Positions 40,868 through 44,258 of a DNA stretch of 50,992 bases are shown here, piece after piece (position 1 is the stretch's first letter; every line of letters begins with the position of its first letter). The notes beneath the pieces are model-generated. The model saw only the letters and a program-made list of their open reading frames with translations. It had not been told where the DNA came from and ran no database searches. Source of the DNA: Rhodospirillaceae bacterium SYSU D60007 (GTDB taxonomy: Bacteria > Pseudomonadota > Alphaproteobacteria > Reyranellales > Reyranellaceae); contig QOCQ01000030.1 of assembly GCA_003574685.1 (NCBI GenBank), positions 1 through 50,992 of the forward strand. Direction: 5' to 3'. A program made the translations under genes and the position numbers.

Positions 40868-41635
40868 TCAGCCCTGCACCGAGTAGCCGCCGTCCACGGG
40901 GATGGCGGTGCCGGTGACGAAGTCCGAAGCGCGGCTGCACAGGAAGACGGCGATCCCGGCGTGGTCATCGGGCGTGCCCCAGCGTCCGGCCGGCGTGCGC
41001 GCCAGCACCCGCTCGTGCAATCCCGGTACTTCCTGGCGGGCGCGCACGGTCAGCTCCGTCTCGATCCAGCCGGGCAGCACAGCGTTCACCTGGATGTTGT
41101 CGCCGGCCCAGGCCGTCGCGCAGACCCGGGTGAACTGCACGATGCCGCCCTTGCTGGCGGCATAGGCGGGCGTGAAGGGCGCACCGAAGATCGACATCAT
41201 CGAGCCGATATTGATCACCTTGCCGCCGGCCGCGCGCTTCAGATGCGGATAGGCGGCATGGCTGCACAGATAGGCGCTGGTGAGGTTCGTCTCGATCACG
41301 CTTGTCCATTCCGACAGCGAGATCTCGTTGGGCGGCTTGCGCACGTTGATGCCGGCATTGTTGATCAGGATGTCCAGCCGTCCGTGGCGCCGGACCGTCC
41401 CCTCGACCATGTCCCGCACCGAGGCTTCGTCGCGCACATCCACTTCGGCCTGGCTGGCCTTTCCGCCGAGTTCCTCCAGAGCCTTCACCGCCCCGGCCGA
41501 CTTCGCAGCATTACGCGCCGCGATCACCACCGTGGCTCCGGCGGTGGCCAGCCCTCGGGCCATGCCCAAGCCGATGCCGCCATTGCCGCCAGTGACAATC
41601 GCCACCTTGCCCGTCAGATCGAACATTCCCGTCAT
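40868..41635 (-). CDS. SDR family oxidoreductase (gluconate dehydrogenase-like)
   Basis: A 255-residue NAD(P)-dependent short-chain dehydrogenase. Cofactor motif VTGGNGGIGLG near residue 14, NNAG near 93, catalytic Ser in INIGSMMSIFG, and Tyr/Lys in YAASKGG. The N-terminus MFDLTGKVAIVTGGNGGIG and C-terminal DFVTGTAIPVDGGYSVQG resemble the 5-keto-D-gluconate / 2-deoxy-D-gluconate dehydrogenase group, but no sugar genes are nearby. The start at 41635 (MTGMFDL) has only a weak SD; 41626 is possible. It lies downstream of the candidate RNA gene. Confidence 0.85.
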   Translation of the reverse strand: MTGMFDLTGKVAIVTGGNGGIGLGMARGLATAGATVVIAARNAAKSAGAVKALEELGGKASQAEVDVRDEASVRDMVEGTVRRHGRLDILINNAGINVRKPPNEISLSEWTSVIETNLTSAYLCSHAAYPHLKRAAGGKVINIGSMMSIFGAPFTPAYAASKGGIVQFTRVCATAWAGDNIQVNAVLPGWIETELTVRARQEVPGLHERVLARTPAGRWGTPDDHAGIAVFLCSRASDFVTGTAIPVDGGYSVQG

Positions 41636-41753
41636 CGCTGTCTCGTCCTGGATGATTCCGCCGACCTGCAACGTGCATTGAAACGGCCCGGGAGTGAAGC
41701 GCGCGAAAGCCGTCCCATACAATGTCGGGGCAACGTGTCCGCAGATTGTGAGC

Positions 41754-41864
41754 AAAAAAATTGCCCGAGAGGGGAAGCAGGCGACGATACGTCGCGATCC
41801 GCTTTCCTTATCCGCAGACGGGTGATGGCTGTCCTACATCACCGCTCGGCGGACCCTCTCGGGC
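41754..41864 (-). ncRNA. candidate structured small RNA of unknown class
   Basis: On the minus strand, a perfect 12-bp closing stem pairs 41865-41854 (TGCCCGAGAGGG) with 41773-41762 (CCCTCTCGGGCA). The 3' arm is followed by a run of seven T (41760-41754), a Rho-independent-type end. Between the arms are two more stems: TCCGC/GCGGA enclosing GGTGATG/CATCACC (41856-41811) and GGAAAGC/GC(T)TCC enclosing GCGACG-TAT-CGTCGC (41807-41776), giving a three-way junction. A perfect TATAAT lies directly upstream. Length about 105 nt. It lacks the SRP RNA domain (GGAAGnnAGCAG) and does not match the long 6S layout, so it is not assigned to a known class. It could also be a leader of the SDR gene 120 bp downstream. 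Confidence 0.6.
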
Positions 41865-41870
41865 ATTATA
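41865..41870 (-). promoter_or_regulatory. -10 element of the candidate small RNA
   Basis: A perfect TATAAT on the minus strand, with transcription expected to start around 41858. The -35 position at 17-bp spacing reads GGTTCG, which is a weak match, so an activator or an alternative spacing may be needed. Confidence 0.5.
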
Positions 41871-41980
41871 GTGATGTCCGCATTCAGCGAACCATCCTCC
41901 ACCGCCTATATGCCGCGAAGTGCCGTGGCCGTGGCGTATCAATGCTGTGACAGAGCTGTGATGGCTCCAACTTGGATGGA

Positions 41981-43507
41981 TCAGTCCTGCGGCAAACTGA
42001 CCACCACCCGCAGGCCGCCCGAGGCTGCGTTCCGCGCATGCACGGTGCCGCCCATGGCTTCGGTATTGCGCCGCACGAACCACAGGCCCATGCCGAAATG
42101 ATGCATGCCGCGCGGCGCCGCGAGGGTGACCTGTTCGCCGGGGCCAGCCTCGGGCCGGCGGCTGAAATTCTGCTCGAAGATGCGCTCCAGGTCTTCTTCC
42201 GGAACGCCTGGTCCCGCATCCTCGATGATGATGTCCGCGAATGCCGCGCGGGTTGCGACGATAATTCTGATCTCGCCGCCGGGCGGCGAGAAGCTGATCG
42301 CGTTCTCGATCAGATTGCCCATGATCGCTTCGAACAGGCGCTCGGCACCGCGCACATGGACACCCGGCGCGATGTCGCGCTGCAAACGGATATCGCCCAG
42401 CTCCAGCTCGTCCTCGTAGTCGACCACCACGTCGTTAACCAGATCGGACACATTGATGCGCTGGCGCCGCGGATCGAGCAGGTCGGCGATCATCCAGTCC
42501 ATGCGCCGGCCTGCGGCGATGATGCGGTCGATCTTGTCCAGCGAACGGTTGATGCCGTCGAGCGCTTCGCGGCTGCGCGCGTCGCCATCCGGCACGGCCT
42601 GGCGCAGCGGCACCACTAGCTGGCCGATGGTCGCCACCGGCGTCTTCAGCGCGTGGATGTTCTCTTCGGCCACATGCCGAATGAGCTCCGCCGACGAACG
42701 CAGCCCAGCGATCAGTCGATCGAACTCCCGCGCCACGCCGGACAGCTCGGGCATGCGGTTGAGCCTTTCGAAGGACTCATCGCTGCGTCCGGCACGCAGG
42801 TCATGCGCCAGGCGCTGGAAGCGGCGCAGGTGCAGCCAAATGCTGAGGAAGAGCCCCAGCACCAGGGCGGTGAGGCCGGCATAGACGACGGCGGCCATGC
42901 GCATTTCGCTCGACTGCCAGTATGGCCGGCCGATCGACGTTTCCAGGTAGGTCGCCGCGGTCCAGCTCGTTAGCACCGACCAGCACCCGGCGGCGGTGCG
43001 CGCCGAGGCGATGGCGAACAACAGCTCGTTCGTGCCCGTGTCGTTGCCAATCCGCGCCTCGATCGGCGCGGTGCCATCGCAGGTACGGGGCGCCTGCGCC
43101 AGCAGCCCCAGTTCCGCCAGCTTCTGCCGTACGGGTTCGAACGCCACCTGCGTCTCGCCGGGCGCGGCGGCGACGAGGAACACGCCCTCGCCTTCCGGAT
43201 CCTCGGTGTGGAGCAGCAAGCGGATCGTCAGGCCGTCATTGGCCATGGCATTGATGGCGTTGGTTACCAGCGTGATCGCCTGCGGGTTGAAGTGGTCGAT
43301 CATGGGCCGCAGACCGTTCATGATCAGCGCGGCCTGCTGCTGGGCCGCCCGCAGGACGATGACCTTCTTGTCCTCGTCGGCCTTGCGGAACTGCACATAA
43401 AGGATGAGCGGCACGGCGCTGCAAACGACCAGCAGGATCAGGACGCTGGCGGCGATCGAGCGGCCCGGAGACAGAAAGCGTCTGAACCAGTCAGACGGAA
43501 CGGCCAT
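41981..43507 (-). CDS. sensor histidine kinase
   Basis: A 508-residue membrane kinase: first membrane segment about 15-38, periplasmic sensor region about 40-235, second segment about 237-262, then a HAMP-like linker. The phosphorylation site is His285 in EENIHALKTPVATI, a PhoQ-like H-box rather than the common HELRTPL. ATPase motifs: GNLIENAISFSPPGGEI (N box), DAGPGVPEEDLERIF (G1) and GMGLWFVRRNTEAMGG (G2). The start at 43507 overlaps the 3' end of the response regulator by 17 bp, so the pair is translationally coupled. The signal is unknown. Confidence 0.9.
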   Translation of the reverse strand: MAVPSDWFRRFLSPGRSIAASVLILLVVCSAVPLILYVQFRKADEDKKVIVLRAAQQQAALIMNGLRPMIDHFNPQAITLVTNAINAMANDGLTIRLLLHTEDPEGEGVFLVAAAPGETQVAFEPVRQKLAELGLLAQAPRTCDGTAPIEARIGNDTGTNELLFAIASARTAAGCWSVLTSWTAATYLETSIGRPYWQSSEMRMAAVVYAGLTALVLGLFLSIWLHLRRFQRLAHDLRAGRSDESFERLNRMPELSGVAREFDRLIAGLRSSAELIRHVAEENIHALKTPVATIGQLVVPLRQAVPDGDARSREALDGINRSLDKIDRIIAAGRRMDWMIADLLDPRRQRINVSDLVNDVVVDYEDELELGDIRLQRDIAPGVHVRGAERLFEAIMGNLIENAISFSPPGGEIRIIVATRAAFADIIIEDAGPGVPEEDLERIFEQNFSRRPEAGPGEQVTLAAPRGMHHFGMGLWFVRRNTEAMGGTVHARNAASGGLRVVVSLPQD

Positions 43508-44258
43508 GGGCAGTCCACCGGTAGCCGAAACCGGGGTAGTTCTCGATGCACTCGAAAGTGTCATCAAGGTCCCGGAACTTCTGGCGGATGCGTTTGACGA
43601 AGGAGCGGACATTGGCGCGGTATCCCTCGGAGCCGAACCCGGCCGAGAAGCCGGGCCCGCGCACCGCGTTGTAGAGATCGCGATAGCGCACGTCGCGTCC
43701 GGCGTTGCGCGCCAGATGCTCGACGACGGCAAACTCCGCGACGGTCAGGTCCACCTCGCGGCCCTTCCACACGGCACGGCACGACGCGGGGTTGAGTTCG
43801 AGATCGCCGATCGTGATCGGCTCCGCCCCGGCCACGGGCTCGTCCTCGGTCCCCTCGCGGCCGCGAGCCAGAATCATCTCGATACGCTTCTGGATGATCG
43901 TGAAGGTGCGCGACTTGTCGATGAAGTCCACCGCGCCGTCGGCCAGCGCCGTTTCCTCGTAGAACGGTTCGCCGAGCACGGTGAGGAACACCACCGGCAC
44001 GTCGATCTGCGCTTCGCGCATCTTGCGCAGCAGCTCGATGCCGCTCATGGCCGGCATCTTCCAGTCCAGCAGCGCCAGCGTTGCGGAACGGTCGGCCTTC
44101 AGGTGCTCAAGCGCGATCCGGCTGTCACCGAAGGCGAGGACGTCCAGCCCGGCATCGCGCAGGTTGTTGCGCAGTGCCTCGCGGAACATATCGTCGTCAT
44201 CGACCAGGACGATCCGCGGTGTGCTGCCGTCCTTCGCGGCACTAGCCGGCCTTACCAT
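43491..44258 (-). CDS. OmpR-family response regulator
   Basis: A 255-residue protein. The receiver domain has acidic pocket VDDDD (about 19-23), phosphoacceptor Asp65 (LLDWKMPAMSG) and Lys near 116 (DFIDKSRTF, unlike the usual KPF). The C-terminal winged helix (about 150-250) contains LTVAEFAVVEHLARNAGRDVRYRDL, a recognition helix ANVRSFVKRIRQKF, and GFGYRW. Its ATG overlaps the end of the upstream lipoprotein by 17 bp and its stop overlaps the kinase start by 17 bp, so all three form one operon. Confidence 0.92.
   Translation of the reverse strand: MVRPASAAKDGSTPRIVLVDDDDMFREALRNNLRDAGLDVLAFGDSRIALEHLKADRSATLALLDWKMPAMSGIELLRKMREAQIDVPVVFLTVLGEPFYEETALADGAVDFIDKSRTFTIIQKRIEMILARGREGTEDEPVAGAEPITIGDLELNPASCRAVWKGREVDLTVAEFAVVEHLARNAGRDVRYRDLYNAVRGPGFSAGFGSEGYRANVRSFVKRIRQKFRDLDDTFECIENYPGFGYRWTAHGRSV

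Follow-up and report, generated by a model that had tools for sequence, protein, structure and literature searches.

The minus strand of positions 41754 to 41900 in the window, by which we mean the whole stretch of 50,992 nucleotides analysed here, most likely holds an independent small RNA (sRNA) gene, a reading to which we assign a probability of about 0.8. We favour an independent sRNA over a leader of the adjacent SDR gene because the RNA is better conserved than its flanking genes and the spacer towards the SDR gene is not conserved. Together with a matching partner RNA at a second locus, termed RNA2, the element would be new to the Reyranella/Vineibacter lineage, for which no bacterial sRNA work was found in the open-licence literature (titles and abstract starts; subscription papers lie mostly outside this body of work). 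The locus is arranged as follows:

40868..41635, minus strand: SDR oxidoreductase gene (adh_short_C2 domain), downstream of the sRNA and the same neighbour in 4/4 genomes
41754..41900, minus strand: candidate full sRNA gene, 147 nt, covered by covariance model R1
41981..43732, minus strand: histidine kinase gene (HATPase_c), adjoining the sRNA; open reading frame as listed, the true start possibly lying later
43491..44258, minus strand: OmpR/PhoB-type response regulator gene (Response_reg and Trans_reg_C domains)

Fold and conservation of the element

A first-pass annotation, made from the sequence alone, had described on the minus strand a TATAAT, a closing stem, two arms in a three-way junction and a run of seven T, all of which are present as described. 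The longer form considered here comprises the following parts:

41893..41900, minus strand: 5' end GGAGGAUG, candidate pairing segment, invariant in 4/4, as is the RNA2 segment CAUCCUCC that it complements
41876..41892, minus strand: 5' hairpin P0 (GUUCGC / GCGGAC), paired in 4/4
41865..41870, minus strand: TATAAT of the first-pass annotation
41855..41864, minus strand: 5' strand of the closing stem P1, GCCCGAGAGG, pairing with 41763..41772; 9/10 pairs invariant
41811..41853, minus strand: arm P2, 41/43 positions identical in 4/4 and 13/14 pairs invariant
41836-41828, minus strand: 9-nt loop of P2, UAGGACAGC, invariant
41773..41807, minus strand: arm P3, variable, carrying all 4 pairs with two-sided changes
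41763..41772, minus strand: 3' strand of P1, CCTCTCGGGC, doubling as terminator stem
41754..41760, minus strand: U-tract of seven T, the terminator end, directly after the structure

The minimum free energy calculated for 41870-41752 of the minus strand was −61.7 kcal/mol, compared with a shuffle mean of −37.7 (z −6.28), and 0/200 shuffles were as stable. For the longer form, the z values were −5.60 in the own genome and −5.26, −4.49 and −4.38 in the homologues G001, G003 (lacking two 3' bases) and G002, respectively. The T-run comprises seven residues in the own genome, six in both G001 and G003 and five in G002, and the four-sequence alignment revealed a longer P0 loop in G003 as well as one U-G to U-A change in this hairpin. 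A simple promoter and terminator scan of 41500-42100 reported nothing; we explain the missed terminator by the closing stem enclosing both arms instead of forming a short-loop hairpin. Short open reading frames overlap the element, e.g. 41808-42083 on the minus and 41694-41825 on the plus strand, and these look non-coding because the differences between the homologue lengths (147, 148, 152 and 146 nt) are not multiples of three.

A DNA search of 61 genomes detected the element in four, namely the own genome and three others of the genus (the Vineibacter group: Vineibacter terrae CC-CFT640, Reyranella sp. CPCC 100927 and the MAG TGS_PRO8). In 4/4 genus genomes it is flanked by the same two genes, that of the histidine kinase and that of the SDR. 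The pairwise identity of the RNA was 81–89% in the four genomes, whereas the kinase end (600 bases) exhibited 71–81%, the 66 bases upstream of the RNA 73–88% and the SDR gene 75–80% (3/4 genomes). Judged by these identities, the RNA is better conserved than the flanking genes, and the spacer between the RNA and the SDR gene is not conserved, with 19–27% identity among the own genome, G001 and G002, where the distance from the RNA to the SDR start is 127, 316 and 182 nt, respectively.

The covariance model R1, built from the four homologues, scores these at 154–178 bits, and its best match among the other 71 of the 75 family genomes reaches 19.8 bits; 10/71 yielded a match at E ≤ 1, and we take the matches outside the genus for chance. 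In three genus genomes R1 also gave matches on the reverse strand of the element (26.8, 19.1 and 17.7 bits). When 289 genomes from across the class were searched, the own genome was the only one among the matches listed, so that, as far as these searches reach, the sRNA is known so far from one genus only.

In the four-sequence alignment 97.6% of the cells pair. Two-sided changes occur in 4/41 pairs, all in P3, a number reached by 8/500 shuffles, and the structure derived by RNAalifold itself contains such changes in 3/43 pairs. The covariation is modest, because only four sequences are available, P1 and P2 hardly vary and the structure slid by −3 columns still gives three pairs with two-sided changes, with only 54% of the cells pairing. 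In P1 and P2 there is too little variation for covariation to speak for or against either helix. The fold, the conservation and the Rfam searches described below support the earlier proposal of a new structured sRNA absent from Rfam, the covariation adding modestly to it.

This conservation pattern also bears on the reading of the element as a mere strong transcription terminator of the kinase operon, devoid of any trans function. Its location directly behind the kinase stop and its stem with U-tract would suit such a role, but a terminator needs neither the near-invariant 43-nt arm nor the 5' hairpin nor the upstream box, and the conservation exceeds that of the flanking genes, making this reading very improbable in our estimation.

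A cis-acting leader or attenuator of the SDR gene, for which the first-pass annotation had considered a riboswitch-like role, would use the three-way junction to sense a ligand and the closing stem as terminator. The element lies on the same strand upstream of the SDR gene in 4/4 genomes, and its architecture, with the junction closed by a terminator stem, recalls that of attenuators. Against this, no alternative antiterminator is visible by eye, the U-tract follows directly after the structure, the poorly conserved spacer varies between 127 and 316 nt in three genomes, and the upstream box and 5' motif recur at a second locus that has no SDR gene. We consider the leader role unlikely.

Comparison with known RNA families

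Scanning the whole window with Rfam 15 at the gathering score yielded 0 matches, and no known family matched the element at E up to 10 or its counterparts in the three homologues at E up to 1. The sole Rfam match at E up to 10 was to Fungi_SRP (10.8 bits, 41953-41967, plus strand), located over the upstream box and not over the RNA. The first-pass annotation had seen neither an SRP RNA nor a 6S RNA here. No SRP model matched the element in the Rfam scans, and 6S RNA (RF00013) was rejected since the only 6S match of the genome lies elsewhere, at C56:131855-132011, with 55.8 bits compared to a gathering score of 46.4. Likewise, a CsrA sponge of the CsrB/RsmZ type was rejected: CsrA was found in 0/4 genus genomes by a search that detects it in 3/14 control genomes.

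The length, the strong fold and the GGA motifs, of which the four homologues contain 7, 6, 6 and 5, could still point to a known kind in disguise, be it 6S, SRP RNA or a CsrA/RsmA-titrating RNA. Given the 6S gene at another place, the lack of an Rfam match on the element and the missing CsrA in the genus, this appears the most remote of the explanations weighed here.

Probable start site and upstream box

Upstream of the folded region two further conserved elements were delineated:

41905..41912, minus strand: candidate −10 region CATATAGG; CATATAG (41912-41906) invariant in 4/4, the last G differing in G002
41936..41962, minus strand: tandem TCACAGC half-sites at 11-bp spacing, ATCACAGCTCTGTCACAGCATTGATAC, candidate box of an OmpR-family regulator; 2 variable positions in 4 homologues

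The first-pass annotation had regarded the TATAAT (41870-41865) as the sRNA's own promoter. We rejected it as the −10 element, as the hexamer is not kept in 3/3 homologues, which read TATAGCC, TATAGCC and TTTGGCC at this position (two of them retain TATA, the third not even that), and the resulting start would fall inside the closing stem and cut it. The TATAAT is probably located inside the transcript. From the conserved CATATAG and the tandem box upstream we infer a start near 41900, about 30 nt upstream of the TATAAT, and an RNA of ~147 nt that would probably begin with GGAGGAUG.

OmpR-family regulators typically bind direct repeats spaced 11 bp apart. Based on this spacing and on the adjacency of the genes, we see an even chance that the neighbouring two-component system controls the sRNA; its OmpR-type response regulator would then switch on both the sRNA and RNA2 through their tandem TCACAGC boxes.

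A first two-repeat TCACAGC pattern, allowing ≤ 2 mismatches, occurred at 19 places in the own genome compared to 30 for the reversed control, with the sRNA's box as the only exact match. The RNA2 place (G000:C15:43456-43494), where two matches lie side by side, was picked by eye from these 19. A refined pattern built from both sites, RTCACARSATTGAYAC, is found without mismatch at exactly two places per genome in 4/4, the sRNA and RNA2, at none with one mismatch and at 8 to 24 with two, the reversed control giving 1 or 2 at ≤ two mismatches; these counts show the rarity of the box and are not independent evidence.

The strict-pattern tandem box is absent from 11 R1 and 16 R2 match loci outside the genus (R2 being the model of RNA2, see below), with stray CATCCTCC or TAGGACAGC matches in four of the out-of-genus loci scanned. 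It is likewise absent from the kinase loci of 26/30 other genomes with a kinase match, from the surroundings of the kinase paralogue in three genus members and from the second copy in the own genome.

This second kinase/regulator copy resides at G000:C23:7062-8750. In the kinase search, which covered 46 family genomes, 34 contained a match at E ≤ 1e-40; orthologues of the window's kinase in the three other genus genomes are 79–80% identical, and the remaining family matches 34–40%. By these values the kinase beside the sRNA is a genus-specific paralogue, and the second pair is perhaps the ancestral copy, because only kinases similarly distant (34–40% identity) from that of the window occur in the other family genomes. 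Of the open reading frames near the second pair, one resembles by eye a mannose-1-phosphate guanylyltransferase and another a polysaccharide export protein.

We also considered ChvI as the regulator and rejected it, since its motifs as given in the available part of PMC9731502 (TTGC-N3-GCAA and GCC-N8-GCC) differ from the TCACAGC box and the kinase of the window scores far below the cut-off of the Caulobacter-type ChvG model (92 bits, cut-off 740).

A second locus behind the same type of box

The twin of the sRNA's box precedes a second conserved element:

G000:C15:43360-43430, minus strand: RNA2, conserved two-hairpin RNA-like element, 3' of a TerB-like gene and behind the twin of the sRNA's box

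RNA2 is kept in 4/4 genus genomes and consists of a 7-bp hairpin, the invariant CAUCCUCC and a 13-bp hairpin with an invariant 9-nt loop, AUUGCGACC. In excerpts of 67–71 nt the CAUCCUCC segment was predicted to be unpaired with a probability of 1.0 in 4/4. The model R2, built from the four sequences, scores these at 89–98 bits and other places at most 30.8; outside the genus it matches in 27/71 other family genomes at E ≤ 0.1, which we take for chance. No Rfam family matched RNA2 at E up to 1. The TerB-like neighbour itself scores 22.6 bits, under the Pfam cut-off of 24.4. The gene following RNA2 reads by eye as a sulfurtransferase in 3/4 genomes and is a different one in G003, which speaks against a simple leader function. 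RNA2 is less secure as an RNA than the sRNA, because its hairpin lacks a directly following U-tract in 4/4 and two-sided pair changes are missing in the four genomes.

As a separate observation, AGGUCGCA occurs behind RNA2 in 3/4 genomes, 75–82 bases after the start of CAUCCUCC, and complements UGCGACCU in and beside the hairpin loop, possibly enabling a pseudoknot or an alternative fold; in the own genome it was not found within 200 bases behind RNA2.

Complementarity between the sRNA and RNA2

The first eight bases of the sRNA complement the exposed CAUCCUCC of RNA2 in 4/4 genomes. With a 16-base query, the duplex of the sRNA 5' end with RNA2, containing one bulge, amounted to −21.4 to −25.8 kcal/mol across the four genomes, and among all sRNA 14-mers the first is the best RNA2 partner in 4/4. 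Shuffled RNA2 equalled this first 14-mer in 1, 0, 0 and 0 of 1000 cases (own, G001, G003 and G002, respectively), and when any sRNA 14-mer was allowed it equalled the pairing in 16, 0, 32 and 2 of 150. With whole RNAs, duplexfold, which ignores internal folding, preferred other, longer interrupted duplexes of −44 to −55. In the predicted fold of the sRNA, part of GGAGGAUG is itself paired, and a GGAGG shortly after RNA2 in the own genome is another possible partner for CAUCCUCC. Part of the complementarity arises because a GUUCG hairpin arm is common to both RNAs.

The RNA2 14-mer CGRACGCATCCTCC, whose predicted duplex with the start of the sRNA contains a single bulged base, is found exactly in RNA2 in 4/4 and exactly once elsewhere in the four genomes, antisense within an open reading frame reading as a sugar-transporter permease. 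Matches with one mismatch are common, at 9 to 24 per genome, so that the motif lacks specificity on its own and additional targets may exist. Within the window, complements of GGAGGAUG (2 versus 2.3 expected) and of the P2 loop (7 versus 5.6 expected, one being the element itself) are at chance level.

Taken together, we consider a functional pairing of the sRNA with RNA2 plausible, at slightly less than even odds. In such an interaction the Shine-Dalgarno-like GGAGGAUG end would pair with the exposed anti-Shine-Dalgarno-like CAUCCUCC, and the sRNA may serve as sponge or decoy for RNA2, or RNA2 may be the target of the sRNA. The invariant P2 loop UAGGACAGC probably offers a further site of contact, with either an mRNA or a protein. 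The combined model of a stand-alone, trans-acting sRNA that is linked to the two-component system and pairs with RNA2 via its 5' end can be held only tentatively, since its rating is capped by that of the pairing itself.

Alternatively, RNA2 may be unrelated to the function of an otherwise independent sRNA, which would act on mRNAs via the P2 loop or bind a protein; the 5' motif common to both loci would then reflect a DNA operator or chance. P2 is the least variable arm, with its 41/43 identical positions, comparable duplex energies were reached in up to 32/150 shuffles with any sRNA window allowed, and RNA2 is the less secure RNA. The occurrence of CGRACGCATCCTCC in RNA2 in 4/4 and only once elsewhere argues against this alternative, but the locus was first found via its box. 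We regard action independent of RNA2 as a serious possibility that also stays somewhat short of even odds.

A more far-reaching version of the combined model holds that a genus-specific two-component paralogue has its own post-transcriptional arm, in which one type of tandem-box promoter drives just two transcripts, the Shine-Dalgarno-mimicking sRNA and the anti-Shine-Dalgarno-like RNA2, with mutually complementary 5' segments. We rate this as rather doubtful. If true, a single regulator would govern a built-in pair of opposing riboregulators, of which one RNA is the effector and the other its sponge. Any ordinary alphaR8 sRNAs present in the genus could then be titrated by the sRNA as well. 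Should the pairing hold, the sRNA and its antagonist would answer jointly to a single response regulator, a compact, testable design for how a duplicated signalling system gains post-transcriptional control.

Relation to described sRNA circuits

The nearest described circuit is formed by CrfA and SisA of Caulobacter crescentus, the anatomy of which appears alike on paper. According to the available part of PMC12559287, a G/A-rich segment of CrfA sequesters the exposed UUUCCUCCCU core of alphaR8 sRNAs such as SisA; CrfA, which carbon starvation induces, uses the second of its stem loops for pairing and has four alphaR8 sRNA targets. In both cases the pairing, a putative one here, joins a G/A-rich sRNA segment to a single-stranded, C-rich core behind a weak hairpin of the partner RNA, whereas in our case the candidate segment is the 5' end and the partner shares the promoter box (PMC12559287).

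RNA2 in turn resembles the alphaR8 sRNAs (SisA-D, MmgR), as portrayed in the same source, in having a hairpin at its 5' side and, behind it, an open stretch containing UCCUCC, which is predicted to be exposed in 4/4. It differs from them in this stretch, CAUCCUCC compared to the core UUUCCUCCCU, the rest of the core being different, as well as in the lack of a U-tract directly behind the hairpin, and thus of the Rho-independent terminator expected of an alphaR8 sRNA, and in its neighbour, a TerB-like gene and not FGase (PMC12559287).

Like ChvR of Caulobacter, the sRNA is an alphaproteobacterial one with a link, putative in our case, to a two-component system of the OmpR family, whereas ChvR, in the available part of PMC6237742, comprises 84 nt and lies beside recF. 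Similarly, OmrA and OmrB, as summarized in PMC12559287, are sRNAs regulated together by the OmpR-type system EnvZ-OmpR and carry a conserved 5' pairing site; these two share one 5' end, whereas here the 5' end of one RNA complements the other.

Further features of the surrounding DNA

Two additional observations concern the neighbourhood of the sRNA. Direct repeats of TTGTGTTGATTGTGTG, differing from the TCACAGC box, are located at 44870-44855 on the minus strand of the window, upstream of the open reading frame preceding the response regulator, and are a possible promoter element. In V. terrae, the segment L002:1266-1347 between the sRNA and the SDR gene scored below the cut-off against the mir-281 and g2 models and is probably an inverted repeat.
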